64,000 nucleotides of DNA from Mesorhizobium sp. (GTDB lineage: Bacteria > Pseudomonadota > Alphaproteobacteria > Rhizobiales > Rhizobiaceae). Positions 664 through 18,288 of this stretch are shown here, piece after piece; position 1 is the stretch's first letter; every line of letters begins with the position of its first letter. The notes below the pieces were generated by a model, which did not search any database, was not told the origin of the DNA, and worked only from the letters and a program-made list of their open reading frames with translations. Made by a program: the position numbers and the translations under genes. Where the stretch lies: assembly GCA_004020545.1 (NCBI GenBank), contig SAQE01000024.1, positions 1-64,000 of the forward strand. The letters are read 5' to 3'.

Positions 664-1779
664 CTAGTCCGGCATCGCGAACTCACTGGCGAGATCGACA
701 GCGCGGCCCTCGCGGGCTGATCGCTGGGCGGCGAGGCCCATGACGACGGCCCACCAGCCGTCTTGCAAGGTCACCTCGACATTGCCTTGCCCGCGCACTG
801 CGGCGACAAAGCGGAGGTGCTCGAAATAGGTCGAGCCATTGTGATCGCCTGCCTCGAGCAGTCGGACATCGACCGGAATCTCCAGCAGGCGCGGCCCCGG
901 CGGATTGCGCGGACTGACGATCAGCTCCGACACGGGCGCGGCGCCCAGATGCCGCGGCCAGAAGCGACCCGGTCCCGGAACCCGGCATTCGATCTTGCCG
1001 CTGCCACCGATCGCACAGAGTTCCTCCTGGTATCGACTGCCCTCGGCGAACATGCACAGCTCTAGCATAGCGCGCGCACCGCTCGCGAAATCGACCAGCA
1101 CATAGCCATGGTCGAGAATATCCGGCGTCTCGCCGCCATAACGTTCCTCAAGATGGTTTCTGGCCTGCCCCGCGCTCGCCATCACGCGGACAGGATCGGA
1201 TCTGAGGATCAGCCGCATCAGGTCGAAGAAGTGGCAGCACTTCTCGACGAAGGTGCCGCCGGTATTGCGGTTGAAGCGGTTCCAGTCGCCGACCTTGGCC
1301 AGGAAGGGAAAACGGTGCTCGCGAATGGTCAGCATGCGAATGCCGCCGGTGACGCCGCCGGCCTGTTCGACGAAAGCGGCGACAGGCGGCATGTAGCGGT
1401 ATTCCATCGCCACCCACACCAGCGGAAGCCTTGCCTTCAGCGCCGCGATGCGCGTCTCGTCGTCGGCGGCCGTGAAAAGCGGTTTTTCCACCAGGACCGG
1501 TAGCGGCCGCTGCGCGGCGATCTCCTCCAACTGGCTGAGGTGGCGATGGTTGGGGCTGGCGATCAGAACGCAGTCGACCCCTTCCGTGGCCAGCAATTCG
1601 GCGATCGACACCGCCGGTCGTGCATCCGGCGCCAGGCCCAATGACGCTGCCATCATGCCGGGGTCGGGCTCGAAGATGGCGGCCACATGCGCATCAGGCA
1701 ACAGTGCGATGTTGCGGATATGCTCCTGGCCCATCATACCGCAGCCGACAATGCCGTAGCCGATCGATGATTTGGTCAC
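664..1779 (-). CDS. Gfo/Idh/MocA family NAD(P)-dependent oxidoreductase
   Basis: A 371-residue cytoplasmic dehydrogenase. The N-terminal Rossmann fold shows GIVGCGMMG (residues 9-17); ASPNHRH (74-80) and the family-defining EKP motif (98-100) follow, then the C-terminal alpha/beta domain of sugar and inositol dehydrogenases. The start is taken as GTG at 1779, because GGAAGG sits eight bases upstream and the preceding codons do not resemble the family; an ATG further upstream would add 21 unlikely residues. It lies 17 bp downstream of a GntR-type regulator on the same strand, so the two are probably co-transcribed. The substrate is unknown; a sugar, polyol or uronate derivative is likely by family. 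Confidence 0.85.
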   Translation of the reverse strand: MTKSSIGYGIVGCGMMGQEHIRNIALLPDAHVAAIFEPDPGMMAASLGLAPDARPAVSIAELLATEGVDCVLIASPNHRHLSQLEEIAAQRPLPVLVEKPLFTAADDETRIAALKARLPLVWVAMEYRYMPPVAAFVEQAGGVTGGIRMLTIREHRFPFLAKVGDWNRFNRNTGGTFVEKCCHFFDLMRLILRSDPVRVMASAGQARNHLEERYGGETPDILDHGYVLVDFASGARAMLELCMFAEGSRYQEELCAIGGSGKIECRVPGPGRFWPRHLGAAPVSELIVSPRNPPGPRLLEIPVDVRLLEAGDHNGSTYFEHLRFVAAVRGQGNVEVTLQDGWWAVVMGLAAQRSAREGRAVDLASEFAMPD

Positions 1780-1796
1780 TCGGCGCCTTCCATCTC

Positions 1797-2534
1797 TTAT
1801 TTGAAACGAGTCACGTAACGCGCCGCGTCCGGATCGAACCAACTGCGGGAATATTCCACACTGTCTCCGTCCCCGGCCCAGGCAATGCGTTCGATGAACC
1901 CCACGACCTCGCCCGGCCGAGGTCTGAAATCGGCCGGGGCCCAGCCCGGGGCGGGCGCGACGCCGACACGATCCTCGGCGCGAACGATCGAAAAGCCGAG
2001 GGCCAGCCGGTAGTGGAGATAGAGCGATTCCGACAGGTCATCGCGCTCGAGCCGCTCGGCTCGGCTGGCATCGAGCCAGATCTCCTCGGCCGCTGCCGGT
2101 TCGCCGTCGAGCCGACGCAGCCGACGGATGCGGTAGGCATCAAGGGCGCTGCCGAACTCCGGCAGATCGGACGGCTTGGGTAGCCGTTCGACCGACAGCA
2201 CCTCGGCGGTCGGGAGTCCGCCGCCGTCGATGCGCTCCAGCCTAAAGAAGGCGTAGACCCCGAGCAGGTCGCCGCGCGCCCGCACATAGTTGCCCGATCC
2301 CTGGACGCGGTCGAGCAGGCCTTTTTCGGTGAGGTCGGCCAGCGCGCGCCTCAGCGTGCCGACGGCAATCCCGAGGCTCGCGGCCATCTCGCGTTCCGGC
2401 GGAAGCCGCGCCCCGTCGGCCAGCCGTCCGGCCGCGATTTCGCGGATCAGCATTTCGCTGATCTGCAAATGCACGGGTAGAGGACCGCGCATCTGGCTGG
2501 ATCGGTGGCCGCGCTCGGTTCTCGTTAGCTGCAT
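1797..2534 (-). CDS. GntR-family transcriptional regulator with UTRA ligand domain
   Basis: A 245-residue regulator of the HutC subfamily. Residues about 20-85 form the winged helix-turn-helix, with PPEREMAASLG and a GSGNYVRA wing. Residues about 95-235 form a UTRA-type effector-binding domain ending in a typical SRSWFDPDAARY stretch. The start at 2534 has AGGTGG just upstream. It precedes the Gfo/Idh/MocA gene by 17 bp and is divergent from the luciferase-like monooxygenase at 2647. The shared intergenic region holds a near-perfect palindrome (2574-2587), so this protein probably controls both units in response to a small metabolite that cannot be named from sequence. Confidence 0.87.
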   Translation of the reverse strand: MQLTRTERGHRSSQMRGPLPVHLQISEMLIREIAAGRLADGARLPPEREMAASLGIAVGTLRRALADLTEKGLLDRVQGSGNYVRARGDLLGVYAFFRLERIDGGGLPTAEVLSVERLPKPSDLPEFGSALDAYRIRRLRRLDGEPAAAEEIWLDASRAERLERDDLSESLYLHYRLALGFSIVRAEDRVGVAPAPGWAPADFRPRPGEVVGFIERIAWAGDGDSVEYSRSWFDPDAARYVTRFK

Positions 2535-2573
2535 GTCCACCTTTTCCTGCGGCCTCAGAAAATTGATACAGTA

Positions 2574-2587
2574 TTGATCTACATCAA
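2574..2587. promoter_or_regulatory. Candidate GntR operator palindrome
   Basis: TTGATCTACATCAA is symmetric at 12 of 14 positions and sits between the divergent GntR regulator and monooxygenase genes, 40 bp from the first start and 60 bp from the second. A further TTGATAC half-site lies just left of it at about 2563. Size and location fit an autoregulated GntR operator; binding is inferred. Confidence 0.45.
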
Positions 2588-2646
2588 ATCGAATGCTACG
2601 CAAGCCCCATTCGCCGCCAACGCAACGAACTCTTGAAGGACGAGCA

Positions 2647-3804
2647 ATGACTGTCGTCCCCATTACCTCACCGGATCTGGATGCGGCTGAGGTCGCCTGG
2701 TTCGCCGCGCTCTGTTCGGACGACTATCGCTATCTCGGCGTGCCCGACGGCGCACTGCGCTCGAGCTGGGCGCACTGCTCCGAGATCGTGAGGACCTCCG
2801 AGGAGCTCGGCTTCCGCAACATCCTGTGCCCGTCGTCCTATCAGGTCGGGCAGGACACGTTGAGCTTCGTCGCCGGCTGCGCGCCGATCACCTCGAGGAT
2901 CAATCTGCTCGCGGCCGTGCGTTGCGGCGAGATGCAGCCGATCATGCTTGCACGCACCATCGCGACGCTGGACCACATGCTTGAAGGCCGGCTGACGGTG
3001 AACATCATCTCGTCGGACTTTCCCGGCGAAACGGCCGACAGCACCTACCGCTATCAGCGCTCGCGGGAGGTGGTGCAGATCCTGCGCCAGGCCTGGACCC
3101 AAGATGCGATCGATTTCGAGGGCGAGGTCTATCGTTTCAAGGGCGTCCCGACGGCGCCGGCAAAGCCCTACCAGCAGAATGGAGGGCCGTTGCTCTATTT
3201 CGGCGGCTATTCGCCCGATGCGCTCGATCTTTGCGCCGAACAGTGCGACGTCTACCTGATGTGGCCGGAGACGAAGGAGGAACTCGCCGGCCGCATGAAA
3301 TCGGTGCACGAGCGGGCCGCGCGCCATGGGCGCACCCTCGACTACGGATTGCGTGTCCACATGATCGTGCGCGACACCGAAGCCGAAGCGAAGGACTATG
3401 CCCGCGAGCTGGTTTCGAAGCTGGATGACGAGCAGGGCAGGGCGATCCGCGAGCGGGCGCTCGATGCCCGATCGCTTGGCGTATCGCATCAGGCCAAGGC
3501 GCGCGAGATCGCCGACGCGGAAGGTTATGTCGAGCCGCATCTGTGGACCGGCGTCGGGCGGGCGCGCTCGGGCTGCGGCGCAGCGCTGGTGGGCTCAGCC
3601 GATCAGGTGCTGTCGGAAATCGAGGCATATATGAAGTTGGGCATCCGAGCCTTCATCTTCTCCGGCTATCCGCATCTCGACGAAGCGCGGCATTTCGGCA
3701 CCAAGGTGCTTCCTCAGCTCAAGACGTGCTCGTTGCCGCATGCCTACGGGCGTGTGCCGGACCGGGTTCCGGCAACACCATTGGGAAGGGGGGAGCGCCA
3801 CTGA
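2647..3804 (+). CDS. LLM-class flavin-dependent monooxygenase (SsuD-like)
   Basis: A 385-residue luciferase-like TIM-barrel monooxygenase close in length to alkanesulfonate monooxygenase SsuD (about 380). These enzymes use reduced FMN and O2 to oxidise sulfonates, nitriloacetate-type chelators, dibenzothiophene sulfone or similar compounds. The ATG at 2647 has AAGGACG upstream; a longer frame back to 2593 lacks a ribosome site and family similarity. Its TGA overlaps the ATG of the flavin reductase (TGATG at 3802-3806), which fits a two-component system with coupled translation. No sulfonate ABC transporter is adjacent, so the substrate remains open. Confidence 0.85.
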
Positions 3805-4289
3805 TGGAGCATTTCGTGTGCGACCCACGTCTGTTGCGCAACGCATTCGGGCGCTTCGCCACCGGTGTCACGGTCGTCACCACCGGCACGGCCGACGGCC
3901 CGGTCGCCATCACCGCCAACAGCTTCTCGTCCGTCTCGCTCGATCCGCCGCTGGTGCTCTGGTCGATCGGCCGCCATTCACGCCGGTTCGACGCCTTCGC
4001 CAATGCCGCGTACTATGCCATTCACGTGCTGGCGGACGATCAGATCGAACTTTGCTGGCGCTTTTCGAAGTCAGGGACCGATTTTGCCGGCCTCGAATTG
4101 ACGTGGAACGGGCACGGCGTGCCGCTGCTGCCGCGGGCGCTGGCGCGGTTCGAATGCAGCGTCGCGGACCGCTTCCCGGCGGGCGACCATATGATCCTGC
4201 TTGGACGCGTTCTTGAACTGGAAACGCAGGAAGGTCTGCCGCTGCTCTTTGCCGGCGGCAAGTCCCGTCCTCAAGGCGACGGCGGATGA
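3804..4289 (+). CDS. Flavin reductase domain protein (monooxygenase partner)
   Basis: A 161-residue FMN-binding split-barrel reductase. The block FGRFATGVTVVTT near the N-terminus and NSFSSVSLDPPLV are typical of the family (usually about 160-170 residues), which supplies FMNH2 to class C monooxygenases using NAD(P)H. It starts inside the stop codon of the upstream LLM monooxygenase, so the pair is almost certainly co-translated. The C-terminus ends in GGKSRPQGDGG, less conserved than the usual FF-GG-Y tail. The last 19 bases overlap the 3' end of the convergent LacI-type gene. Confidence 0.87.
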   Translation: MEHFVCDPRLLRNAFGRFATGVTVVTTGTADGPVAITANSFSSVSLDPPLVLWSIGRHSRRFDAFANAAYYAIHVLADDQIELCWRFSKSGTDFAGLELTWNGHGVPLLPRALARFECSVADRFPAGDHMILLGRVLELETQEGLPLLFAGGKSRPQGDGG

Positions 4290-5338
4290 GGCTCGGCGCC
4301 GGCCGGAGCTGGTGCGGTCGACCGGCGCACCACCAGGTGGCAGGCGAGCTCGACGCGGCGCGGCGGCAGCATCGAATGGGCCATGTCGTCGAGCAGGAGG
4401 CTGAGCGCTGCCGAGCCGATCTCGCGCATGGGAATGTGCATCGTCGTCAGCGGCGGGTTGCAGAAGGCTGCCTGCGGCAGGTCGTCCATGCCGACGACCG
4501 AGACATCGGCCGGCACCGAGTATCCGGCCTCCTGGATGCCGGCGATGGCGCCGAAGGCCAAACTGTCGCCCGCCGTCAGCACGGCCGTGAAATCGAGGCC
4601 GCGATCCGCGATGCGGGCGGTGACGGCCTTGCTTGCAAGCTCCGGAAGCCAGTCTTCAACCTCGACCACGAGGTCGTCGAAGCCGGTGATGCCGCCCGCC
4701 ATCAGCGCGTCGCGCCAGCCTTCGTAACGGCGCTCGATGGTGCGTCGGCCGCGCCGCATCAGGAACAGGATGCGGCGGTGGCCAAGACCGATGAGGTGCC
4801 GCGCGGCGAGCATGGCGGCGGAGCGGTTGCAGGGCGTCACGCTCGAATGGCGCATCGAGGGATCGTCGCCGTTGACGAGCACGATCGGCTTGGAAAAGCC
4901 GGCCGTCAGCGTCAGCACGTCAGCATCATCCAGCGTCAGAAAGAGACAGCCGGCGACGCTGTCATCGCGTTCGGATTCGCGCAGGAGGGCGATTTCGTCC
5001 TCGGGCGTCGCGACCGGCCGGGTCACCAGCTCGACGCCCAGCAGTCGGGCGCGTTCGTTGAGCCCGTCGAGGACGTGATAGGTGAACTGGTTGCGGGCGC
5101 TGTCGACCATGGCCACGCTGCTTGCAGCCAGGATGACCTTGCGGCCGGCAACCGAGGCCGGGATGGCGTAATTCATCGACTTCGCCGTCTCGATGATCGT
5201 GGCGCGAAGGTCATCCTTGACGCCGCCGACGCCGCTCAGCGCGCGGGAGGCGGTGCTGACGGAGACGCCGCACCGCGCCGCGATCTCTTCCAGTCGAACA
5301 CGGCGGCTGGGGCGGCCGCGCTTGCCCTGGATCGTCAT
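4271..5338 (-). CDS. LacI-family transcriptional regulator
   Basis: A 355-residue repressor-type protein. The DNA-binding headpiece (about residues 10-35) contains the VSVSTASRAL recognition helix. It is followed by the hinge and a periplasmic-binding-protein-like sensor domain (LVNGDDP, GLGHRRILFL, VVGMDDLPQAAF). The start at 5338 is preceded by GGAGG. It is divergent from the uronate operon that starts at 5449, so it most likely represses that operon and is released by an intermediate or imported oligosaccharide. The 3' end overlaps the flavin reductase by 19 bp. Confidence 0.9.
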   Translation of the reverse strand: MTIQGKRGRPSRRVRLEEIAARCGVSVSTASRALSGVGGVKDDLRATIIETAKSMNYAIPASVAGRKVILAASSVAMVDSARNQFTYHVLDGLNERARLLGVELVTRPVATPEDEIALLRESERDDSVAGCLFLTLDDADVLTLTAGFSKPIVLVNGDDPSMRHSSVTPCNRSAAMLAARHLIGLGHRRILFLMRRGRRTIERRYEGWRDALMAGGITGFDDLVVEVEDWLPELASKAVTARIADRGLDFTAVLTAGDSLAFGAIAGIQEAGYSVPADVSVVGMDDLPQAAFCNPPLTTMHIPMREIGSAALSLLLDDMAHSMLPPRRVELACHLVVRRSTAPAPAGAEPHPPSP

Positions 5339-5448
5339 AGGTTCCCGCGCCTCCGGCAAAATCGTCCAAATCTGCAAAAAATTTTCACATTGCGCAAGAA
5401 AAATCCCTGTGAAACAGTTCGCGTGAGGCGGGAGAAACGGGAGGAGTG
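5339..5448. promoter_or_regulatory. Divergent LacI/uronate-operon control region
   Basis: This 110-bp AT-richer gap must hold both promoters. It contains the perfect palindrome TTGCGCAA (5390-5397), flanked by an inverted pair TTTCACA (5383-5389) and TGTGAAA (5408-5414). LacI-family operators are usually palindromes with a central CG, which TTGCGCAA satisfies. Assignment as operator is inference. Confidence 0.4.
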
Positions 5449-6549
5449 ATGCCGCTTTCGGCCGAACGCCTGAATTCCGCGCTTACGAGCCTCGTGGCCG
5501 GCATGACCGGCTTGCGCCATGACGGGCGCTTCGATGAGCCCAATCTCGACGGGACGCCGGGAGACTATGTCAGCTTCGACAGCTGGGAATGGCCGCAGGG
5601 CGTCGGACTCTATGGCCTGGTCCGGCTGTGGGCGCAGACCGGCGAGGATCGGCTGCTGCAGACGATCGAGGCCTGGTACGACCGGCGCATCGCGGCCGGA
5701 CTGCCTGCGATGAACGTCAACACCACCGCGCCTCTGCTGGCGCTGAGCGAATTGTGGCGGCGCCGGCGCCAGCCGCGCTTCGAGCCGGTCTTGCGCGACT
5801 GGGCCGAGCGGGTGGTCACCGCGATGCCGCGGACGCCCGAAGGCGGCTTCCAGCACAATGTTTCGGACCGGGTCAACGACGACGAATTGTGGGACGACAC
5901 CTTGTTCATGGTGGCGCTGTTTCTTGCATCCTACGGCCAGGCCGCCGGCCAGCGCCGCTTCGTCGAGGAGGCGGAACGGCAGTTCCTCGTCCACGCCCGT
6001 TATCTCGCCGATCCGGTGTCGGGGCTGTGGTTCCACGGCTGGAGTTTCGACGGCCGGCACAATTTCGCCCGCGCGCTTTGGGGCAGGGGCAATGCCTGGA
6101 TCACGGTCGGTATTCTCGATCTGGTGGAGTTGGCCGAGATTACGCCCTCGGTGCAGGGCTATTTGCTCGGCATCCTAGAGACGCAGATCAAGGCGCTGCT
6201 CGGACTCCAGTCGGAGTCGGGCGCATGGCACACCTTGCTCGACGATCCGAGCTCCTACAAAGAGATCTCCGCTACGGCCGGCTTTGGCTATGGGCTGCTG
6301 AAGGCCGCACGGCTGGGAATCGGTCCGGCGCAATGCAGGGCCGCCGGTCTCCGCGCCCTGGAGGCGGTGGTGGCCAACATCGACGACAAAGGGGTTGTGG
6401 CGAATGTCTCCTACGGCACACGCATGGGCCATGACCTGCAGTTCTACCGTGACATCCCCATCCATCCGACCGGCTATGGGCAGGCGCTCGCTATCCTGTG
6501 CCTGACCGAAGGGGCACTGCATCTGCAATCGAAGGTGGAAGCGGCATGA
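5449..6549 (+). CDS. GH105/GH88-type unsaturated uronyl hydrolase
   Basis: A 366-residue (alpha/alpha)6-barrel enzyme similar in size to YteR (373). These hydrolases remove the 4,5-unsaturated uronic acid left at the non-reducing end by polysaccharide lyases, by hydrating the double bond. DELWDDTLFM (145-154) is the catalytic block, D150 being the likely acid/base, and WGRGNAW (211-217) is a family signature. There is no signal peptide, so it acts in the cytoplasm on imported oligosaccharides. The ATG at 5449 is preferred over GTG at 5446 because GGAGG lies four bases before it. Its TGA overlaps the next ATG. Linkage preference (rhamnose or another neighbour) cannot be read from sequence. Confidence 0.85.
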   Translation: MPLSAERLNSALTSLVAGMTGLRHDGRFDEPNLDGTPGDYVSFDSWEWPQGVGLYGLVRLWAQTGEDRLLQTIEAWYDRRIAAGLPAMNVNTTAPLLALSELWRRRRQPRFEPVLRDWAERVVTAMPRTPEGGFQHNVSDRVNDDELWDDTLFMVALFLASYGQAAGQRRFVEEAERQFLVHARYLADPVSGLWFHGWSFDGRHNFARALWGRGNAWITVGILDLVELAEITPSVQGYLLGILETQIKALLGLQSESGAWHTLLDDPSSYKEISATAGFGYGLLKAARLGIGPAQCRAAGLRALEAVVANIDDKGVVANVSYGTRMGHDLQFYRDIPIHPTGYGQALAILCLTEGALHLQSKVEAA

Positions 6550-7379
6550 TGCGAACGCTCTACGGCACATCGCCGGCGGACATTGCCGGCATGGATACGG
6601 AGCGGCTGAGGTCCGAATTCCTGGTCGACCGCCTGTTCCGGCCGGACGCGATCGAATTCGTCTATACCCATGTCGACCGCATGATCATCGGCGGTGCGGT
6701 TCCCGTCGCCAAGCCGCTGATGTTCGGCAACGGGGCCGATGTCGGCACGGAGCTCTTCTTCACGGCGCGTGAGATGGGCATCGCCAATCTTGGCGGCAGC
6801 GGCACGGTCGCCGTGGACGGCAGGCGCTTTACCCTGGCCAACCGCGACATCGCCTATATCGGACGTGGCGCGCGCGAGGTGACGCTGGAGAGCGACGATC
6901 CGGAGAGGCCGGCGCGCTTCTACATGAACTCGGTGCCGGCCGGCGCCGACATTCCCCACCGTCTCATCTCCAGGAGTGAAGCCAAGCCGCTGGTCCTGGG
7001 CGAGGAGGCGCGCGCCAACAAGCGCACGCTGCGCATGTATATCCACCCCGAAGTGGCCCCGTCATGCCTTCTGCTGATGGGCATCACCGACCTCGCGCCA
7101 GGCAGCGTGTGGAACACCACGCCGCCGCATCTGCATGAGCGGCGCATGGAGGCCTATTGCTATTTCGACCTCGCCGCTGCGGACCGGGTCGTCCATCTGA
7201 TGGGCCGGCCCGACAATACCCGCCATCTGATGGTCGCCGACGGCAATGTTGTCCTGTCGCCGGCCTGGTCGATCCATATGGGCGCGGGCACCGGTCCCTA
7301 CGGCTTTGTCTGGGGCATGACAGGGGAGAACCAGGCCTACACCGATGTCGACCCGGTTGCCGTGAAGGATTTGCGATGA
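6546..7379 (+). CDS. kduI: 5-dehydro-4-deoxy-D-glucuronate isomerase KduI
   Basis: A 277-residue cupin-fold isomerase, near-identical in length to E. coli KduI (278). It converts 5-keto-4-deoxyuronate, the open form of the unsaturated uronate released by the upstream hydrolase, to 2,5-diketo-3-deoxygluconate. The zinc ligands of the E. coli enzyme (H196, H198, E203, H245) match H195, H197 and E202 in PHLHERRMEAY and H244 in WSIHMGAG. The start overlaps the hydrolase stop (ATGATG at 6546-6551) and the TGA overlaps the following ATG, so translation is coupled throughout. Confidence 0.93.
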   Translation: MMRTLYGTSPADIAGMDTERLRSEFLVDRLFRPDAIEFVYTHVDRMIIGGAVPVAKPLMFGNGADVGTELFFTAREMGIANLGGSGTVAVDGRRFTLANRDIAYIGRGAREVTLESDDPERPARFYMNSVPAGADIPHRLISRSEAKPLVLGEEARANKRTLRMYIHPEVAPSCLLLMGITDLAPGSVWNTTPPHLHERRMEAYCYFDLAAADRVVHLMGRPDNTRHLMVADGNVVLSPAWSIHMGAGTGPYGFVWGMTGENQAYTDVDPVAVKDLR

Positions 7380-9895
7380 GCGTGGCCGCGCAAAGCGTTC
7401 AGACCGATTTCACGCTGCGCAGGCCGCTTGCGGCCGGGCGGCCGATCGCCCACTGGCGGCTCGGACCTGTCACCGAGCAGCGCTACGACGTGGCCGATCA
7501 GCCCATGAAGGGCGAGATGGATCCCTTCTTCTTCCTGACCAAGCACAAGAATTTCATCCCGCATGAATATCCGTGCCGCACGCAATTCGCAGCGGAACGT
7601 CGCGGCAAGCGGCCTCTGGTCAGCTCCGAATTCAGCGCCGGGCGCATCTGGCTGCCCTTCGCCTCGCCGCGTATCGACCTGTCGGGTTTCTGGTTCCGGC
7701 CGACGGTGCTTGGAACCTGGGCCGAGACGATGATCGATGCTGCTTCGGCCGGCAAGGCGCTGGTGCGGCTGCGCACATGCGGCGGCGCCATACTCTTCGC
7801 CAACGGCGAGGAGGTCGGCTGGATGGCGCCCTACGGCCGCAACCTGGAAACCGCCGAGAACTTCAGAATTGCGCTCAAGGCCGGTCGCAACGAAATCCGG
7901 ATATGGTTCGACGATCTCGCCGAGCGCGACGCCCGCTACTATTTCCAACTCGACTATCTGTCAGGTCCAACCGCTGCGGTCGCGTTGCCAATCGAGGTCG
8001 AGGGTGCGGTTGCGGATGCGATGGAGGCGGCGCTCGACGACATGCGTTTCGAGCGTCCCGCTTATGACCGCGGCGAGGTAGCGTTGGTCACCGGCGTGGC
8101 GTTGCCGCGCGACGCCGCGGTCGCTGTCGAGATCGAGGGCGATTTCATGTCGATCGAGGCGCCGGTGCGCTTTGCCTTCGATCTGCCCGCTGGCCAGAAG
8201 CGCCTGCCAATTGGCGATACCGAGCAACTGCCTGCCGACTTTCGTCATTTCAAGGTGACGCTGGCGATCGGAGGCCATGCCGTATCGCGCGTCTTCGGCG
8301 TGGAGATCTGCCACGCGCGCCGCCAGGCCGCCGCGCCGGAAACGCTTGCCGCGCGCATCGACGAGGCGCTCGTTGAAGTCGCCGATCATGCCGAGGCCGA
8401 CACGGTGCGCGCGCTGGCACGGCTGGCGATCGGGCAGGCGGGCGCCGAGACGGACGCCATGGTCTCCGGGGCTCTGCCTGCGATCGAGGATTGTCACGAT
8501 TGCGCCGATTTCATCCTGGTGCCGCTGCTGTGGTGCCGCAAGGCCTATGGCGATCGGCTGGAAGCAGATCTGCGCGCGCGTGTCGACATGGCCATCCTCG
8601 GCTACCACTATTGGATGGACGAGCCCGGCAATGACGTGCAGTGGTATTTCTCCGAGAACCACGCGCTGCTCTTTCACACCGCAGCCTATATTGCCGGCGC
8701 CCTTCTGCCGGAAGCATGCTTCGTGCGGTCGGGCCGCCTTGGCCGCGAGCAGTCCGCCGTGGGCGCCGCGCGGGTGCGGGCCTGGCTCGATCATTTCGAG
8801 GCATGGGAAATGGCCGAGTTCAATTCGGCGCCCTACTTCCCGATCGACCTCAAGGGTCTGTGCGCGCTCTACGCGCTGGCTCCCGACAAGGACATCGCCG
8901 AACGTGCCGGCAACGCGGTGATACGCCTGCTGGAGATCGTCGCCCGCTCGGCCCATCACGGCATCCTCACCGGCGCGCAAGGCCGTTCCTATGAGCACAC
9001 GCTGCGCGCCGCGCGCTCGCTTGAGCTATCGGGCATTTGTCGTATGGTTTGGGGCAAGGGCAACTACGGCATGCGCTTCCACGCGTTGCCGCAACTGGCG
9101 CTTTGCCTGCGCGACCACGGCATGAGCGTTCCAGCCGAGCTGGCGGCGATCGCCTCCGTCACCGACGATACGGCCTGGGAATGGACGTTCGCGCAGGGGC
9201 AGGACCGCTTCGCGCGGCTCTATCACCACAAGACGCGTGACCATGCGATGGGCAGCGCGGCCAGCTATCGCTGGAACCAATGGGGCTACCAGGAAACCGT
9301 GATCCATGCCCGGCTGGGCAGAGATCCGGATGCACAGATCTGGATCAACCATCCGGGCGAAGTCCTGCAGTCGGGATATGGCAGGCCGTCCTATTGGGGC
9401 GGCTCCGGCACCTTGCCGCGGGTTCACCAATACCGCGACCTCGCCGTCGTCAGCTTCACCTGCTCGGATGAGCAGCCTGACTTCACGCACGCCTGGTTTC
9501 CGGCGAGTGTCTTCGAGACCGTGCGCGTGGATGGCCACCTGGCGTTCGCGCAATCGGGCGATGCTTTCGCCATGCTGAAAACCGATGTGCCGCTGACGCC
9601 GGTCAAGACCGGTCCGACGGCCGGCAACGAGTTGCGGGCTGCAGGCCGCAGGGCGACATGGATCGTTCGCCTCGGCGACCGGACCGTCGATCTGCAAACG
9701 CTCGACGCTTGGGCGGCCGCCTTCGCGGACCTGTCGGTGCGGTCGGGTTCCGACGGCGAACTGATCGTCGAAGATCCGGATTACGGCACCGTGCGTTTCC
9801 TCGCCGACGCGAGGGTCGTGGCTGAGGGGCGGATGCTCGATCCGGCCAACTGGACCGTGCGCGGCGACGCGACGCGCATGAAACGCCAGGAGTAG
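7376..9895 (+). CDS. Uncharacterised 839-residue protein of uronate operon, putative polysaccharide lyase
   Basis: I do not recognise a named family with certainty. The protein has no signal peptide and seems to have three parts: an N-terminal beta-rich region (about 1-340, including a LRTCGGAILFANGEEVGW lectin-like stretch), a helical middle (about 350-690) with the motif SENHALLFH (S426-H434), and a beta-rich C-terminus. This layout, and ENH in a helical toroid, recall heparinase/chondroitin-lyase-type polysaccharide lyases. It is translated from an ATG overlapping the kduI stop (7376-7379). The context (unsaturated uronyl hydrolase plus KduI) calls for a lyase that makes the unsaturated end. 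Alternatives are a glycoside hydrolase or a non-catalytic toroid. Confidence 0.6.
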   Translation: MSVAAQSVQTDFTLRRPLAAGRPIAHWRLGPVTEQRYDVADQPMKGEMDPFFFLTKHKNFIPHEYPCRTQFAAERRGKRPLVSSEFSAGRIWLPFASPRIDLSGFWFRPTVLGTWAETMIDAASAGKALVRLRTCGGAILFANGEEVGWMAPYGRNLETAENFRIALKAGRNEIRIWFDDLAERDARYYFQLDYLSGPTAAVALPIEVEGAVADAMEAALDDMRFERPAYDRGEVALVTGVALPRDAAVAVEIEGDFMSIEAPVRFAFDLPAGQKRLPIGDTEQLPADFRHFKVTLAIGGHAVSRVFGVEICHARRQAAAPETLAARIDEALVEVADHAEADTVRALARLAIGQAGAETDAMVSGALPAIEDCHDCADFILVPLLWCRKAYGDRLEADLRARVDMAILGYHYWMDEPGNDVQWYFSENHALLFHTAAYIAGALLPEACFVRSGRLGREQSAVGAARVRAWLDHFEAWEMAEFNSAPYFPIDLKGLCALYALAPDKDIAERAGNAVIRLLEIVARSAHHGILTGAQGRSYEHTLRAARSLELSGICRMVWGKGNYGMRFHALPQLALCLRDHGMSVPAELAAIASVTDDTAWEWTFAQGQDRFARLYHHKTRDHAMGSAASYRWNQWGYQETVIHARLGRDPDAQIWINHPGEVLQSGYGRPSYWGGSGTLPRVHQYRDLAVVSFTCSDEQPDFTHAWFPASVFETVRVDGHLAFAQSGDAFAMLKTDVPLTPVKTGPTAGNELRAAGRRATWIVRLGDRTVDLQTLDAWAAAFADLSVRSGSDGELIVEDPDYGTVRFLADARVVAEGRMLDPANWTVRGDATRMKRQE

Positions 9896-9983: not shown

Positions 9984-11252
9984 ATGACCAAGACCCGCAC
10001 TGTGCTGGCCGCGATATCGGTCAGCCTGCTCGCATCGACCAGCGCGTTTGCCGGCGACGTGCGCATCATGTGGTACTCGGACGGTGTCGAAGGGGATGTC
10101 ATCCAGGACCTACTAAACCGCTTCATGAAGGACAACCCGGATATACACGTCACGCTCGACAACGTTGCCTACAAGGTCATCCAGGAGCAACTGCCCATCC
10201 AGCTCGAAGCCGGTCAGGGACCGGATATCGCCCGCGTCACCAACATCAAGGAACTCGCCCAGCACTGGCTCGACCTCAGGCCGCTTGTGACCGATCCGAA
10301 ATACTGGGACGACAATTTCGGCGACACGCTCGACTGGATGCGACCCGACGGCTCCAAAGCCATTCCCGGTTTCATGACCCAGCTTACGCTTACCGGCGGC
10401 TTCGCCAACAAGACGCTGTTCGAACAGGCCGGCGTGGCATTGCCGGGCGACAAGGCAAGCTGGGATGACTGGATCAACGCCGCCGCCGAGGTGGCGAAGA
10501 GCCAGCAGCTTCCAGCCGCCTTCGCGATCGACCGCTCTGGCCATCGCATTTCTGGCGCCAACATCTCCTACGGCGCAAACTATATCGGACCCGATAGCAC
10601 GCCGGCGAAGGTGGACGACGGCACCAAGGCATTCGTCGGCAAGCTCGTCGACTGGACCGCCAAGGGACTGATGCTGAAGGATACCTGGGTCTCGGCGGCA
10701 GGCTCGACCTATCGCGCGGCCGCCGACGATTTCGTCAATGCCCAGATCCCATTCTACTATTCGGGAAGCTGGCAGGTCGCCAATTTGTCGACCAAGATCG
10801 GCGACAGCTTCGACTGGGTGGCGACCGGTTCGCCTTGCGGCACCGCCGGCTGCTCGGGCGTGAAAGGCGGCGCGGCCCTGGTCGCCATCAAATACACGAA
10901 GAACCCCAAGGATGTCGCCAAGGTCATGGAATATCTGGCCCGCGAAGATGTCGTGAAAGAGTTCAGCGAACGCACGCTGTTCCTGCCGGCGCACAAGGGC
11001 GTGATCGAGAAAGGCGGACTGAAGTGGGTTTCGACCGACAAGAATGTCGGTCCGGCGCTCGACAAGTTCGTCAAGGCCGCAGGTGAGACGCTGCCGGCGG
11101 CCGACGCGCTGCCGCCGTGGAAGTGGGCCAACGCCTATTACGCGGCGCTGGTAACCCGTGTCAGCCAGGTGATGGCCGGCGAGCTCACGCTCGACGACGC
11201 CTGGGGCAAGGTCGACCAGGACATCGCCGACAAGGTCGCAGAGGCCAAGTGA
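9984..11252 (+). CDS. Sugar ABC transporter, periplasmic substrate-binding protein
   Basis: A 422-residue extracellular solute-binding protein of family 1. A cleavable signal peptide is clear (positive MTKTR, hydrophobic core, STSAFA before GDV, cleavage near residue 23). The mature part has the usual EAGQGPDIARV and TLTGGFANKTLFEQAGV blocks of oligosaccharide binders. GGAGGAG lies eight bases upstream of the ATG. The 88-bp gap after the 839-residue gene is the longest in the operon and may hold extra expression control. It delivers substrate to the two permeases that follow; by context the ligand is a short uronate-containing oligosaccharide. Confidence 0.92.
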   Translation: MTKTRTVLAAISVSLLASTSAFAGDVRIMWYSDGVEGDVIQDLLNRFMKDNPDIHVTLDNVAYKVIQEQLPIQLEAGQGPDIARVTNIKELAQHWLDLRPLVTDPKYWDDNFGDTLDWMRPDGSKAIPGFMTQLTLTGGFANKTLFEQAGVALPGDKASWDDWINAAAEVAKSQQLPAAFAIDRSGHRISGANISYGANYIGPDSTPAKVDDGTKAFVGKLVDWTAKGLMLKDTWVSAAGSTYRAAADDFVNAQIPFYYSGSWQVANLSTKIGDSFDWVATGSPCGTAGCSGVKGGAALVAIKYTKNPKDVAKVMEYLAREDVVKEFSERTLFLPAHKGVIEKGGLKWVSTDKNVGPALDKFVKAAGETLPAADALPPWKWANAYYAALVTRVSQVMAGELTLDDAWGKVDQDIADKVAEAK

Positions 11253-12271
11253 CCGCCGCCGCGACACTCAAGACATGGACAGGCGCCGCTCTCGCTGCGC
11301 CTGTCGTCTGGCTGGCATCGATCGTCAACGTGCCGCTCAAGTCCTGGCAGCGTGCGACGGGCACCGGCGGCATGGCCGCCTTCTTCCTTGCCCCGAACAT
11401 GGCGATCTTCGGCATCTTCGTGCTGGTGCCGCTGGTCATCAACTTCTTCTATTCGGCCACGTCCGGAACGGCCTACTTCCTGCAGGATCGCACCTATGTC
11501 GGGCTGGAGCAATATCAGCGCCTGCTCGACTGCGGCAGCTATCTGGATACTGCCACCTGCCGCGAGGATCTCTTCTGGAAGGCCGTGCACAATACGGGCC
11601 TGTTCGTCGTCGTGCAGGTGGCGATGATGACGATCGTGTCGATCGCAACCGCGCTGATCCTCAACCGCGAGATCGTGGGGCGCAGCTTCTGGCGCGCGGT
11701 GTTCTTCTTTCCAGTGCTGCTGTCGCCCGTCGTCACCGGCCTGATCTGGCGCTGGATCCTGCAACGCCAGGGCCTGCTGAACCTGATCGTCCACGACATG
11801 GGAGGCGAGCCGTACAACTGGCTGACCGATCGTTTCTGGGCTTTCACCGCCGCTGTCAGCGTTTCGGTCTGGGCCCATATGGGCTTCTACACGCTCATCC
11901 TGCTTGCCGGCCTGCAGGCGATCCCACGCGACCTTTACGAGGCTGCCGAGATGGACGGCACCAAACCGGCGCGGGTATTCTGGCGCATCACGCTGCCGCT
12001 CTTGATGCCGAACCTGCTTGTCGTCATCGTGCTGGCACTGATCCGGGCCGTGCAAATATTCGACGAGGTCTATGTGCTGACCGGAGGAGGGCCGGGGACC
12101 TCCACGCTCTATCTCACGCAGTACATCTATGAGATCGGCTTCGCCTCTCTGCTGCGCAATCCGGGGCTGGCTTCGGCGGCTTCCATCCTGATGGGGCTGG
12201 TGTTGGTCGTGCTCACCCTGCTTCAGCTGCAGGTCGGACGTAGGGGCGAACGGAAGGGGGCGCGCGAATGA
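11249..12271 (+). CDS. Sugar ABC transporter permease (MalF/UgpA type)
   Basis: A 340-residue inner-membrane permease with six or more hydrophobic segments and the cytoplasmic EAA loop EAAEMDGTKPARVFWRITLP that contacts the ATPase. The start is GTG at 11249, overlapping the TGA of the binding protein (GTGA), which marks translational coupling. The periplasmic loop after the first main segment contains two cysteines (SYLDTATC region), which is slightly unusual. It pairs with the permease encoded next. Confidence 0.92.
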   Translation: MTAAATLKTWTGAALAAPVVWLASIVNVPLKSWQRATGTGGMAAFFLAPNMAIFGIFVLVPLVINFFYSATSGTAYFLQDRTYVGLEQYQRLLDCGSYLDTATCREDLFWKAVHNTGLFVVVQVAMMTIVSIATALILNREIVGRSFWRAVFFFPVLLSPVVTGLIWRWILQRQGLLNLIVHDMGGEPYNWLTDRFWAFTAAVSVSVWAHMGFYTLILLAGLQAIPRDLYEAAEMDGTKPARVFWRITLPLLMPNLLVVIVLALIRAVQIFDEVYVLTGGGPGTSTLYLTQYIYEIGFASLLRNPGLASAASILMGLVLVVLTLLQLQVGRRGERKGARE

Positions 12272-13320
12272 GCGGCGTCGTGTCATTCCTGACCCGCCGG
12301 CGCGGCGGCCGCTTCTGGCATTGGACGGACATCGTGAGCTGGCTGTGGCTCATCGGCGGCCTGGTCGTCATGTTCGGCCCGGCCATCTGGCTGGTGGGCT
12401 CGTCGTTCAAGACGCCGGCGCAGCTTGCCGAGTTCCCGCCGACCATCCTGCCCTATGTCAGCCAGCAGGCGACGGTAGAAGGTCACGACAAGCCGCTCAC
12501 TCTCTACAGGGTGAAGCTGCCGGACGGTTCGACCAAGGTGCTGGCCGAGCTGCGCCGCATCGGCACCGTGGCGCAGATGGTGGACCCGAAGGCGCCGAAC
12601 GATATCGTGAAGGTCAACATCGCCAGCCGTGAACCGGTGCGCGAAATAGGCTTCGCGACGGAGAACTACACCGAGCCGTTCGTCCATTTCGACTTCCTGC
12701 GCTATCTGCGCAATTCGGTTTTCGTGACGGCAATGGCGACGCTGATCACGCTGCTTACCAATTCGATGGCCGCCTTCGCCCTGTCGAAATACAGGTTTCG
12801 CGGCCGCGACCTTACCATGCTGTTGATCGTCGGTACTCTGATGGTGCCGCTGTCGGTCATCCTGGTGCCGCTCTATTCGGTGGTGAGCGCCGTCGGCCTG
12901 CTCGATTCACTGTGGGGCGTGATCCTGCCGACGGTGGCGACGCCGACCGGCGTATTCCTGTTGCGTCAATATATGCTGACCATCCCGGACGAGCTCTTGG
13001 ACGCGGCGCGCATGGATAATGCGTCCGAATGGCAAATCTACTGGCGTATCGTGTTGCCTCTTGCCGCGCCGGCGCTCGCGGTGCTCGCGATCTTTTCGGT
13101 CGTCTGGCGCTGGAACGACTTCCTTTGGCCGCTGGTGGTTCTGTCGCGCAAGGAGCTCTACACGCTCCAGGTCGGGCTCAACACCTATGCCGGCCAGCTC
13201 AATGTGCAGTGGCATTACATCCTGGCGATGACCGTGGTGACCATGATCCCCGTCGTCCTCGTCTTCGTCTTCCTGCAGCGCTACATCACGTCCGGCATTG
13301 CCGGCACCGGGCTGAAGTGA
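12268..13320 (+). CDS. Sugar ABC transporter permease (MalG/UgpE type)
   Basis: A 350-residue inner-membrane permease, longer than the usual 270-300 because of a periplasmic insertion of about 90 residues between the first membrane segment and the conserved core (about residues 55-140). The EAA loop is DAARMDNASEWQIYWRIVLP. It starts within the stop of the previous permease (ATGA, 12268-12271). Similar large first loops are known in some MalG-type permeases of oligosaccharide importers; here it may contact the binding protein. Confidence 0.92.
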   Translation: MSGVVSFLTRRRGGRFWHWTDIVSWLWLIGGLVVMFGPAIWLVGSSFKTPAQLAEFPPTILPYVSQQATVEGHDKPLTLYRVKLPDGSTKVLAELRRIGTVAQMVDPKAPNDIVKVNIASREPVREIGFATENYTEPFVHFDFLRYLRNSVFVTAMATLITLLTNSMAAFALSKYRFRGRDLTMLLIVGTLMVPLSVILVPLYSVVSAVGLLDSLWGVILPTVATPTGVFLLRQYMLTIPDELLDAARMDNASEWQIYWRIVLPLAAPALAVLAIFSVVWRWNDFLWPLVVLSRKELYTLQVGLNTYAGQLNVQWHYILAMTVVTMIPVVLVFVFLQRYITSGIAGTGLK

Positions 13321-13328
13321 GGGGTGTC

Positions 13329-14417
<1,089 letters not shown>

Positions 14418-14633: not shown

Positions 14634-16004
14634 TCAATCGCCTCCGTACATGACCCTCGGCAGCCATATGACGATCGAGGGGAACACGATGCACAGTCCT
14701 ACTCCGATCGCCTGCAGGCACAAGAAGGGGACCGCGGATCGGAAGATCGTCGCCATCGATATCTCCGGCGGCGCAACACTCTTCAGGTAAAACAGCGAAT
14801 AGCCGAACGGTGGGCTCAGGAACGCCATCTGCATGTTGACCATGAAAATAACGCCATACCACAGCGGCACGTCTTCAGGAGCCACACCGGCCAAGCCGAA
14901 CGTGCCGCCGAATTCGAGTGACTTAAGGATGGGTAGAAATATCGGTACGGTGAGAAGGAGAATGCCCACCCAGTCCAGAAACATGCCCAGGACGAACAGG
15001 ATGATCATCATCAGGACAAGAATGCCATAAGGCGCCAAGCCTGTTCCGAGTATGGATTCGGCAACGAAGTTCTGCCCACCCTTTAAGATAAAGAAGCCGA
15101 CGAACATGGTGGCACCGAAGAATATCCACATGACCATCGCCGTGGCCTTGAGCGTCGCGACACTGGCTTCCCGGATCGTGTCCCAGGTCAGGCGCCGATG
15201 CGCGGCGCAGACGATGAAAGCACCGAACGTGCCGATGCCGGCGGCCTCGACCGGCGTGGCAATGCCCATGAAGATGACCCCGAGCACAAGCAGGATCAGC
15301 AGTATCGGCATGAACGTGCGGCGCAAAAGCTTGAGTTTTTGGATGAAGGCAATGCGCTCGTTCGGTGGCAACGCCGGGCCGAGCTTGGGGTTGATGTAAC
15401 AGCGCGCCGTCACGTAGGCGACGTACATCCCGGACAGCAGCAGCCCGGGAAACACCGACCCGATCAAAAGCTCGCCCAGCGACTGCTGCGCCACCACCGC
15501 ATAGACGATCGCCATGACGGAAGGGGGTATGAGAATGCCAAGGGTCCCGCCAGCAAGAAGCGAGCCGCAGGCGAGCTTGGCGTCGTAGTTGCGGCGAAGC
15601 ATGGCGGGCAGCGCGATCATGCCCATCGTCACTTCCGTCGCTCCGACCACGCCGACCATCGCGGCCAGCAGCGTGCAGGAGACGACCGTGGCCGAGGCGA
15701 GCCCGCCTTTCAGTCCACCCAGCCATTTGTAGACGACGTCGAACAGTTCCTCGATGATACCCGCCTTCTCGAGAATCGCGGCCATGAAGATGAAAAGCGG
15801 CACCGCCGAGAGCTGATAATCCGTCATGAACGGGAAGACCCGAGACGGCAGCATGTTCAGCATGGCCGAATTGCCGAACAGAAAGAGGAAAAGCACGGCA
15901 AGGCTGCCGGTGCAAAAGGCCATCGGCAATCCGAGCAGCAAAAGGACGCCCAGACCCCCGAACATCAATATGCTGAGCCACAGGATCGGAAGCTCGAGAC
16001 CCAT
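14634..16004 (-). CDS. dctM: TRAP transporter large permease DctM
   Basis: A 456-residue, strongly hydrophobic protein with about 12 membrane segments, the size and pattern of the DctM/TRAP-L ion-transporter subunit (usually 425-460). It imports an organic acid together with sodium ions. Conserved stretches include PLFIFMAAILEKAG near the N-terminus and GTLGILIPPS in the middle. It is the third gene of a dctP-dctQ-dctM operon, three bases after the small permease stop. It is convergent with the sugar ABC ATPase gene. Confidence 0.93.
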   Translation of the reverse strand: MGLELPILWLSILMFGGLGVLLLLGLPMAFCTGSLAVLFLFLFGNSAMLNMLPSRVFPFMTDYQLSAVPLFIFMAAILEKAGIIEELFDVVYKWLGGLKGGLASATVVSCTLLAAMVGVVGATEVTMGMIALPAMLRRNYDAKLACGSLLAGGTLGILIPPSVMAIVYAVVAQQSLGELLIGSVFPGLLLSGMYVAYVTARCYINPKLGPALPPNERIAFIQKLKLLRRTFMPILLILLVLGVIFMGIATPVEAAGIGTFGAFIVCAAHRRLTWDTIREASVATLKATAMVMWIFFGATMFVGFFILKGGQNFVAESILGTGLAPYGILVLMMIILFVLGMFLDWVGILLLTVPIFLPILKSLEFGGTFGLAGVAPEDVPLWYGVIFMVNMQMAFLSPPFGYSLFYLKSVAPPEISMATIFRSAVPFLCLQAIGVGLCIVFPSIVIWLPRVMYGGD

Positions 16005-16007
16005 CGC

Positions 16008-17111
16008 TCAGCCAATCCTTCCGAATGCAGTCGCGATGTCTCGCATCAGCCGGGACAGACCCTGAAGCAACAGGAGCGCCGCCCCGGCGGGGATCGCGAG
16101 CTTTACCGGCCAGTATTGAATGCCCCATTCGGTGAACGAGCGTTCGCCAACCGCCATGGCATCACTCGCAAACCGCCATCCTGTGACCAGCATGGTGCCG
16201 GTGAACAGGAAAAAGAAGGCCGAGGTGATGATGTCGCAGATAGCCCGACCGCGTTCGGAGAGGTGGCTATAGACGATGTCGACCCTCACATGGGTTTCGT
16301 CGCGATAGGCATAGGCTCCTGCCAGCATGTACTGCATGCCGAACATGAGAAACATGCTCTCATGCACCCAGTTCGTCGGCGAGTTGAAGACGTAACGGGC
16401 CACGACCTCGTAATAATAGGCGATGACCGCGAGGACTGACCAGTAGGCGACCAACTCGCCCGTCACTCTTGCCAGCCGATCAACGGGCCGGAAAACAGCG
16501 AGCGGAGCTTTGACCGGCGAGGCGGGTACGTCAGTCACCAGCGGATGGGTGTCGGTTGGGGCCGGTTGGACCTCACGTTGGCGAGCGCGGCGAACCAGGC
16601 CCGGCATCAGAAAGACGTCGCCCGCGAGAACAAGGCCGAGGAGAATTCCGGCAATTCGGGCAAGGGTGTTCGAGCGGGCGAGTCCAGCAATGGCAGCAGC
16701 GTCATTGCCGTGAGCCGTCACCGCATCCGCCTCGGCCTTCGCAAGGCGACCGGCGGCACCGCTCTTGCCGGATGTGACATCGGCCCTGGTTTGCGTCAGG
16801 ACCCTTTCGGCATGCTCCGCTTGGGATCGAGCCAGCGACAATGCTTCGCGCCCATCCCGCACCTGGGCACTGGTCCAGAGAACAGCGACGAAGAACGGGA
16901 TGAACAAGAACCCCCAGCGGCTCTTCAGGTAGAAACGGTGCATGCCGAGAAAACCGGCAGTGACCAGGAAGAAATAGGCGAGGAACAAATTGGCTCGGCC
17001 GGCGTCGCGTCGAGCCCGCTCGCGATAGACGAAGAAGACCGCGGCAAGCGGAAAGACCACGAGGCTCGACCAGTAGAGCCAGTGCGGCAGCACAAATGTG
17101 AGTGAGGGCAT
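16008..17111 (-). CDS. dctQ: TRAP transporter small permease DctQ with N-terminal TM2-like extension
   Basis: At 367 residues this is about twice the normal DctQ length (160-200). The last 160 residues are an ordinary four-helix DctQ (EVVARYVFN, VHESMFLMFG, RGRAICDII). The first 75 or so residues form a membrane module with FLAYFFLVTAGFLGMHRFYL, matching the TM2 domain pattern in which a G-x-H-R-F-Y-L turn links two helices. A charged, probably coiled-coil stretch (about 82-130, rich in Ala, Glu and Arg) and another membrane helix separate the two. It lies between dctP and dctM. The extra domain may act in assembly or sensing; that is inference. Confidence 0.85.
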   Translation of the reverse strand: MPSLTFVLPHWLYWSSLVVFPLAAVFFVYRERARRDAGRANLFLAYFFLVTAGFLGMHRFYLKSRWGFLFIPFFVAVLWTSAQVRDGREALSLARSQAEHAERVLTQTRADVTSGKSGAAGRLAKAEADAVTAHGNDAAAIAGLARSNTLARIAGILLGLVLAGDVFLMPGLVRRARQREVQPAPTDTHPLVTDVPASPVKAPLAVFRPVDRLARVTGELVAYWSVLAVIAYYYEVVARYVFNSPTNWVHESMFLMFGMQYMLAGAYAYRDETHVRVDIVYSHLSERGRAICDIITSAFFFLFTGTMLVTGWRFASDAMAVGERSFTEWGIQYWPVKLAIPAGAALLLLQGLSRLMRDIATAFGRIG

Positions 17112-17169
17112 CGGCGACTGCCTCTTGAAGGAGAGTGCGCCCGCCCGGACAGGACGGGCGCGGAGAGCC

Positions 17170-18288
17170 TCAGAGGTTGATCGACAGCCCCTGATACATG
17201 TCCGGCGTTACGTAGCCGAGAGTCGGGTTCTCCATCACCTCAAGCTGCAGCTTGAAGATGCGCGCCGCGTCCTTGTCCTTGTTGGCCCATTCGAACCAGA
17301 TCGGCACCGCGATTTCCTGGAACTTCTGGAGGTCTTCCGCGCCAAGCCGGTTGATTTCAATGCCCGCGTCGGTGAATTTGTGCCAAGCCTCCATGTCGGC
17401 CTTCTGGATGGCCCCGAAATGGATGTTCGAATAGACTTGGATTTCGTCTTCGACGAACTTCTTGAGGTTGTCCGGGATTTGGTTCCAGACACTCATGTTG
17501 ACGGCGAAATCCATCAGGTCGACGGGCTGATACACCGACATCAGTCCAGGCGGCCCCATGGAAATGTATTTGGTCACCTGCTGGAAGCCGAGCGCCCAGT
17601 TTACCGCCGGGCCCGTGTAGTCGGCCGCATCGATCGTGCCTTTCTCCAGCGCTGAGAACACCTCGCCGCCCGGCAGCAGCGTCGTCTTGGCGCCGGCTTT
17701 CGCAAAGGTTTCGGCGATCATGCCGCCCGGTACACGCAGCTTCAGATCCCTGAAATCCTCGATCGAGCGGATCGGTGTCTTGGAGTGGATGATGTTCGGG
17801 CCGTGTTGAATGCGGTTGACGTAGTAAAGACCTTGTTTCGCATAAAGGTCGCGCGCGGCCTGCAGACCACCTTTTGAATAGAAAAAGATGTCCCATTCGT
17901 GCGGATAGCGCAGCCCCATCGTGTAAGAGGACAGGAACGCTGCGGCGGGAAGCTTTCCGGCCCAGTAAAGTGAAAACGAGTTCATCGCCTCCAGAACGCC
18001 GTTCTTCACCCCGTCGAGGAGTTCGAAGTCGCCAACGATGTCCTTCGCCTTGAACGGCTGAAATTCGAGTTGTCCTCCGGTCTTTTCCTTGATGGTGCCA
18101 CACCAGTTCTGGAAAGTTTCAAGTCCGACACCTGCCGGCCACGACGTTTGAATTTTCCAGGTGATTGTGTCAGCGGCCCCTGCCCTTCGAACCCAGGGAG
18201 CGGTAACCGCCGTCGCCGTCAGCCCAGCGACAAGTCCGCTCGTCTTTAGAAATCTTCGCCTTGATTGGGAACGCGATTCTCCGTCCAT
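17170..18288 (-). CDS. dctP: TRAP transporter substrate-binding protein DctP, Tat-exported
   Basis: A 372-residue periplasmic binding protein. SRRRFLKTSG near the N-terminus is a twin-arginine motif, and the AGAADT region gives a likely cleavage site near residue 38, so it is exported folded. LRVPGG carries the arginine that usually binds the ligand carboxylate. DYTGPAVNWALGF resembles the 2-oxoacid/lactate-binding TakP-like branch. The start at 18288 is chosen because GGGAGGAAG precedes it by a few bases. It heads the operon, 58 bp before dctQ. The ligand is probably a monocarboxylate, not proven. Confidence 0.9.
   Translation of the reverse strand: MDGESRSQSRRRFLKTSGLVAGLTATAVTAPWVRRAGAADTITWKIQTSWPAGVGLETFQNWCGTIKEKTGGQLEFQPFKAKDIVGDFELLDGVKNGVLEAMNSFSLYWAGKLPAAAFLSSYTMGLRYPHEWDIFFYSKGGLQAARDLYAKQGLYYVNRIQHGPNIIHSKTPIRSIEDFRDLKLRVPGGMIAETFAKAGAKTTLLPGGEVFSALEKGTIDAADYTGPAVNWALGFQQVTKYISMGPPGLMSVYQPVDLMDFAVNMSVWNQIPDNLKKFVEDEIQVYSNIHFGAIQKADMEAWHKFTDAGIEINRLGAEDLQKFQEIAVPIWFEWANKDKDAARIFKLQLEVMENPTLGYVTPDMYQGLSINL

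Follow-up and report, generated by a model that had tools for sequence, protein, structure and literature searches.

A candidate intracellular uronate lyase of the toroid/beta-sheet class in a GH105-KduI importer operon of Mesorhizobium

The window considered here is the whole 64,000-nt stretch from Mesorhizobium sp. (contig SAQE01000024.1 of assembly GCA_004020545.1). Its subject is a protein of 839 residues plus a stop codon, hereafter Q, encoded in an operon together with a hydrolase of glycoside hydrolase (GH) family GH105, the isomerase KduI and an ATP-binding cassette (ABC) importer (Table 1). A first-pass annotation, made from the letters of the sequence, described Q as a candidate polysaccharide lyase without a clear family, translationally coupled to GH105 and KduI. 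Its coordinates and length agree with the translation, and the coupling is seen in the overlapping codons: Q starts with an ATG at 7376 that shares bases with the KduI stop codon, TGA (7377-7379), and the ATG of KduI at 6546 likewise runs into the stop of the GH105 gene (6547-6549), for which starts at 5446, 5449 or 5503 are possible. The source genome has one Q, one GH88/105 gene over the cut-off and a second KduI elsewhere.

Q was compared with four orthologues, 87-95% identical. The differences at codon positions 1/2/3 are 27/23/97 for the orthologue in locus L002 and 63/57/242 for that in L005; considering that they concentrate at third positions, Q is a real gene. A longer reading frame from 7157 was dropped, since close orthologues keep the ATG at 7376, and a plus-strand frame at 4286-5449 (387 aa, no family) was ruled out as a gene because the LacI regulator lies there on the minus strand. 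The N-terminus of Q lacks a hydrophobic signal stretch, as had been proposed: the highest 11-residue mean Kyte-Doolittle value within the first 35 residues is 0.19 (-0.38 to 1.58 in 80 orthologues) against 2.55 for the signal of the solute-binding protein (SBP), which would place Q in the cytoplasm.

Table 1. Operon genes, predicted domains and candidate active-site residues of Q (window coordinates)
Feature	Position	Strand	Basis or remark
LacI-family regulator, divergent, upstream of the operon; place conserved	4271..5377	-	
GH105/GH88-type hydrolase, putative unsaturated uronyl hydrolase	5446..6549	+	PF07470 2.8e-82; PDB 3qwt, 3pmm
KduI, 5-dehydro-4-deoxy-D-glucuronate isomerase	6546..7379	+	NF002091 371.5 bits, cut-off 250
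Q, candidate intracellular polysaccharide/oligosaccharide lyase, 839 aa	7376..9895	+	translation, conservation, model, fold matches
N-terminal beta-sandwich, residues 19-206, like GH2 sugar-binding domain	7430..7993	+	
Second beta region, residues 230-311	8063..8308	+	DSSP on model
Alpha/alpha toroid, residues 321-594	8336..9157	+	predicted models
N428-H429 of ENH, candidate carboxylate neutraliser and catalytic His	8657..8662	+	invariant; role suggested by motif and spacing, not superposed coordinates
Y487, candidate catalytic Tyr, 59 residues past N428	8834..8836	+	invariance; spacing compared with PMC12088678 Table 4
R537-x-Y539 (GRxY)	8984..8992	+	invariant in 9/9 A5 members
C-terminal antiparallel beta domain, residues 599-836	9170..9883	+	predicted models
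H659 of HP motif, candidate beta-domain His, 172 residues past Y487	9350..9352	+	
ABC importer SBP, hydrophobic signal-like N-terminus	9984..11252	+	PF01547
ABC importer permease 1	11249..12271	+	PF00528; start by homology to L020
ABC importer permease 2	12268..13320	+	PF00528
ABC importer ATPase, UgpC/MalK type	13329..14417	+	NF008653 455 bits, cut-off 432; start from that match

The absence of a clear family was borne out. With hmmscan, nothing in Pfam or NCBIfam matched Q over the cut-off; the 14 members of alignment A1 (13 of 18 relatives plus the window) matched Pfam families weakly at most (lowest E 0.017), and three distant members gave no match at E <= 1. The weak matches, DACNK in 2 of the 14 and DUF7407, RodZ_C and BetaGal_gal-bd in one each (best E 0.017-0.062), were dropped. 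Among the PDB sequences no credible relative turned up, either with phmmer or in two profile searches, which gave chance matches only. Q is a good candidate for a new family in the sense that it is absent from Pfam, NCBIfam and the PDB sequences. In the open-access literature searched, nothing was recognised as describing Q, its operon or a lyase of this kind. The mechanism class is known; no account was met there of the sequence family, of its architecture or of the part that it plays in rhizobial metabolism.

A homologue scan of a one-genome-per-species collection confirmed at least 589 stretches with Q, and the family was found in 9 of 398 genomes sampled evenly across the phylum. Three tiers can be distinguished: subfamily A, at about 50% identity to Q and upwards, in Rhizobiales, Rhodobacterales and other classes of the phylum; subfamily B, at about 29-36% identity, which includes Rhizobium, Sinorhizobium and Thioclava; and an archaeal homologue from Haladaptatus of 661 aa, 27% identical over 61% of Q, from which most of the N-terminal beta modules are absent. 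Among the 60 matches listed from 200 plasmid records, the relatives are annotated as "hypothetical protein" or, apart from KduI, have nothing annotated under the match. Alignments A2 and A3 hold 53 of 80 named loci, chosen for diversity, plus the window, A4 holds 11 reading frames from 8 regions (two just 20-22% identical to the first), A5 (9 sequences) and A6 (14) were picked by hand for spread, and A7 covers 6 of 8 regions, L175 and L182 being omitted.

The named loci are the best 80 of the confirmed stretches and thus the closest by selection (proteins 60-95% identical to Q). Gene clustering finds GH105 in 80 of them, the SBP in 79, KduI in 78, the permeases in 77 and 75, and LacI in 59, with tblastn matches to LacI in the remainder. 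By the starts used, a 4-base overlap joins KduI to Q in 62 of the 78 loci that have both; in L048 and L087 Q directly follows GH105 with no KduI between. Among 61 related genomes PF07470 is over the cut-off in 7, all of which carry a subfamily A member one gene away; the eighth genome with Q, G041, has a subfamily B member and no GH105 over the cut-off. KduI is spread more widely (over the cut-off in 26 of 61). Given the relatedness of these genomes and an operon that moves as one piece, the 7 cases are not independent events; a co-occurrence test with RhaD gave no discrimination. Elsewhere, TRAP (tripartite ATP-independent periplasmic) transporter genes replace the ABC genes (L101, L159 and L163).

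The structure prediction that the first-pass annotation had suggested was run with AlphaFold2 (predicted local distance difference test, pLDDT, 86.6), and the proposed beta/helical-toroid/beta layout is seen in the model, with two beta modules preceding the toroid. The Foldseek listing for the whole model was dominated by matches to the GH2-like N-terminal domain, the alginate lyase Alg17c standing at rank 23; a second model of residues 312-839 was therefore built. For it, ranks 1-17 in Foldseek are all lyases of the solved toroid/beta-sheet class, and the 50 matches listed by VIA-align comprise 48 lyases, one epimerase and one cellulase; the scores are moderate in both comparisons. The closest folds are glycosaminoglycan (GAG) and alginate lyases. 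In the predicted model Q has the feature common to this class (polysaccharide lyase families PL8, 12, 15, 17, 21, 23, 33, 35 and 39), namely a toroid followed by an antiparallel beta domain.

The ENH motif pointed out earlier occupies residues 427-429 and is invariant in all aligned sequences of A2 (54/54), A1 (14/14) and A5 (9/9). A5 reaches down to 27% identity and has 47 invariant columns, with N428 as the only Asn among them; the toroid and beta part contains four invariant His (H429, H434, H659 and H705) and three invariant Tyr (Y412, Y487 and Y539). N428-H429, Y487, Y539 and H659 are invariant down to the archaeal homologue's level of divergence; the shorter Haladaptatus protein (L104:12016-14001, on a plasmid) keeps ENH, Y, GRxY and HP. 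PL17 shows HNH at the position of ENH. The spacing between the Asn and the Tyr in known lyases, computed from the residues given in Table 4 of PMC12088678, is 54 (PL35, PL12, PL15), 57 (PL17), 53 (PL39), 59 (PL8, 1RWA) and 63 (PL23), and that for PL33, computed from the residues given in PMC11848413, is 53; the 59 residues in Q fall inside this range of 53-63. From Y487 to H659 there are 172 residues, compared with 130-166 computed for the families in which the His follows the Tyr (for PL8 and PL23 the table gives a His that precedes the Tyr). When the same invariant residues were placed at random (200,000 trials), the N-Y window was reached in 5.4% and the N-Y-H arrangement (130-175) in 1.1%. 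These statistics lend modest support to a lyase, the windows having been chosen with the case in view. N428, H429, Y487 and H659 are candidate catalytic residues with a near-fitting spacing, in a model whose adjacent loops have low pLDDT (below 50 at 425-427, 480-486 and 538-543, and at 663-674 in the domain model).

Considering the fold comparison and the invariant N/H/Y/H set, we believe that Q is probably a uronate lyase of the toroid/beta-sheet type acting in the cytoplasm, where it would cut an imported acidic oligosaccharide and feed GH105 and KduI; the candidate lyase of the first-pass annotation is to this extent supported. The importer would take up a short acidic oligosaccharide containing a gluco- or galacto-configured uronic acid, that is, glucuronic (GlcA) or galacturonic acid (GalA). 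With the substrate in the cleft between the toroid and the beta domain, Q would break the bond at C4 of the uronate by beta-elimination, its carboxylate being neutralised by N428 (with H429) and H659 and Y487 presumably serving as base and acid. The non-reducing end of the product would then be a 4,5-unsaturated uronate, which GH105 would release; it would then open to DHU, the substrate of KduI, and the isomerised product would pass to a KduD-type reductase. A gene for such a reductase lies downstream of the operon in 20 of the 80 loci, its representative being just below the NCBIfam cut-offs.

According to PMC12838403, DHU derives from GAGs and pectin. Since KduI acts on DHU, the uronate should be GlcA or GalA, iduronic acid being possible; since the core enzymes of the operon are only Q, GH105 and KduI, the imported ligand should break down by a lyase and GH105 alone. 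Oligosaccharides of the types [Rha-GalA]n and Rha-GlcA-x (Rha, rhamnose) or an oligoglucuronate would do. If Q is a lyase, rhamnogalacturonan-I (RG-I)-type oligosaccharides are our leading, tentative guess at the substrate, followed by rhamnosyl-glucuronate or glucuronan fragments. The surroundings of subfamily B are pectin-like: L102 and L162 carry GH28, and L103 adjoins L-rhamnose catabolism. In Rhizobiales, a LacI-type regulator, RhiR, was predicted to control a rhamnogalacturonide cluster (PMC3870299). It is quite possible, however, that a lyase in this position acts on another main class of substrate (glucuronan, GAG-like or bacterial exopolysaccharide fragments) and not on plant rhamnogalacturonan. 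The closest folds are consistent with this, no GH28 was found in the source genome, 29 of the 80 loci have a downstream gene for an alpha/beta hydrolase that may be a deacylase, and the subfamily B member of G041 stands beside a GH38 alpha-mannosidase and an Opp-type importer (L160:8416-13993). Against it are the pectin-like surroundings of subfamily B and KduI, which through DHU points to GlcA or GalA and away from alginate-type uronates.

Several points tell against this reading or limit it. No sequence profile connects Q with any lyase. The first-pass argument, that an enzyme to make unsaturated uronates is required in the operon, is not valid on its own, as GH105 and KduI could process oligosaccharides cut externally. 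Of 13 further loci (L100-L105, L157-L163), 11 have GH105 inside the cluster and two, L160 (G041) and L104 (Haladaptatus), do not; members of the family without GH105 may do something else. Finally, NCBIfam labels the GH105 of the operon "beta-galactosidase BglB" (NF051900, 556.9 bits, cut-off 420), which conflicts with the KduI context; should this label be correct, only KduI and Q would be left to speak for uronates. No paper behind the name was found in the literature searched.

Alternatively, Q could be a glycoside hydrolase, or some other enzyme built on a toroid that trims sugars: other organisms would make the unsaturated oligosaccharides outside, the importer would bring them in ready-cut, Q would remove another sugar, and GH105 and KduI would treat the unsaturated end. 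The GH2-like N-terminal sandwich, the toroids of GH92, GH95, GH63 and GH127 further down the Foldseek list, and the precedent of cutting outside by RhiT/RhiN (PMC3870299), which would remove the need for an internal lyase, all agree with this. We nevertheless consider it unlikely, given that lyases are the best matches over the toroid and beta domain, that the invariant set resembles their N/H/Y/H, and that no GH family in Pfam or NCBIfam is over the cut-off for Q. A C5-epimerase preparing uronates of the imported oligosaccharide for another enzyme, built on this fold and with residues comparable to those of human dermatan sulfate epimerase 1 (His205/Tyr261/Tyr473), a type that Q matches in fold, is very improbable, because GH105 and KduI handle products of elimination, not of epimerisation, and a catabolic operon with its own importer has no obvious use for one.

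The proposed lyase can be set against those already known. Compared with the PL35 GAG lyases (GAGase II/VII, 8khv and 8khw; chondroitinase 9o3q), Q adds two N-terminal beta modules, shows no signal peptide and has other partner genes; none of the three PDB searches with Q returned a PL35 chain. The PL17 lyase Alg17c (4nei) has in its beta domain an HGHFD motif without an equal in Q, which has HP, and acts on alginate, a type of uronate substrate against which the KduI context speaks. No PL17 Pfam domain was found in Q, and hhalign against 11 PL17-like proteins gave a probability of 0.1-0.3%. The Agrobacterium PL15 lyase Atu3025 (3a0o) also takes alginate, and no sequence similarity to Q was detected. 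PcRGLX of PL26 (5xq3, 5xqg, 5xqj, 5xqo), an exo-lyase on RG-I, may have a type of substrate in common with Q; however, no PcRGLX Pfam match was found in Q and no PF19501 in the source genome, hhalign of the Q family against 6 PL26 proteins gave 0.1-0.2%, and PcRGLX entries are not among the 50 matches listed in each of four fold comparisons. Oligogalacturonate lyase (Ogl, PL22) is a beta-propeller unrelated to Q. Like the proposed Q, it is cytoplasmic, acts on imported oligosaccharides and yields DHU for KduI-KduD (PMC12838403). The Rha-GlcA lyases of PL27/PL42 were dropped as relatives, the group being beta-propellers according to PMC8377490. Rhizobial Hepar_II_III proteins were left out of the comparison; of the 10 loci examined, 6 have a reading frame that lacks an NH dipeptide.

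Some neighbouring genes deserve mention. Positions 664-4289 of the window encode a Gfo/Idh oxidoreductase, a GntR/UTRA regulator, a luciferase-like monooxygenase (LLM) and a flavin reductase. The monooxygenase matches PDB 7olf/7oh2, which we take to be SmoC, at 730 bits. For the oxidoreductase the best PDB match is 8zn9, followed by 8qc3/8qc2, the NAD+-dependent sulfoquinovosidases ArSqgA/FlSqgA (PMC10755693). The segment looks like a sulfoquinovose desulfonation module (sulfo-SMO plus GH188-like). The same Gfo/Idh-GntR-LLM set adjoins the operon in 31-32 of the 80 loci, up- or downstream and in both orientations (within L020-L099, for example, L020:3273-6915, L040:3689-6800 and L066:17285-20300), accompanied in 10 loci by an aldo/keto reductase, possibly SmoB-like. 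On the other side of the operon, TRAP genes DctM, DctQ and DctP occupy 14634-18318 on the minus strand. In Haladaptatus (L104) the neighbourhood is rich in Gfo/Idh genes and also encodes a heparinase II/III protein of 1304 aa and a protein resembling acetylxylan esterases, and in a subfamily B neighbourhood (L161:2860-4713) a DUF2264 protein (PF10022, PF20938), presumably GH154, immediately precedes KduI.

In its widest form, which is rather doubtful as a whole, our proposal is a new polysaccharide lyase family spread over Rhizobiales, Rhodobacterales, further classes of the phylum and haloarchaea. Its members would be toroid lyases of the cytoplasm that carry a GH2-like N-terminal module and cut rhamnosyl-uronate linkages of plant-derived oligosaccharides; rhizobia would thereby have a complete intracellular route of three enzymes (lyase, GH105, KduI) for fragments of the rhamnogalacturonan or arabinogalactan type. 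If true, this would name a protein that is "hypothetical" wherever its annotation was seen and is present at no fewer than the 589 confirmed stretches of the one-genome-per-species collection. It would also complete a catabolic operon that root and nodule bacteria carry and add a sequence family to the toroid/beta-sheet lyases, and the adjacent SBP would offer a simple way to test which acidic oligosaccharides are taken up by rhizobia.
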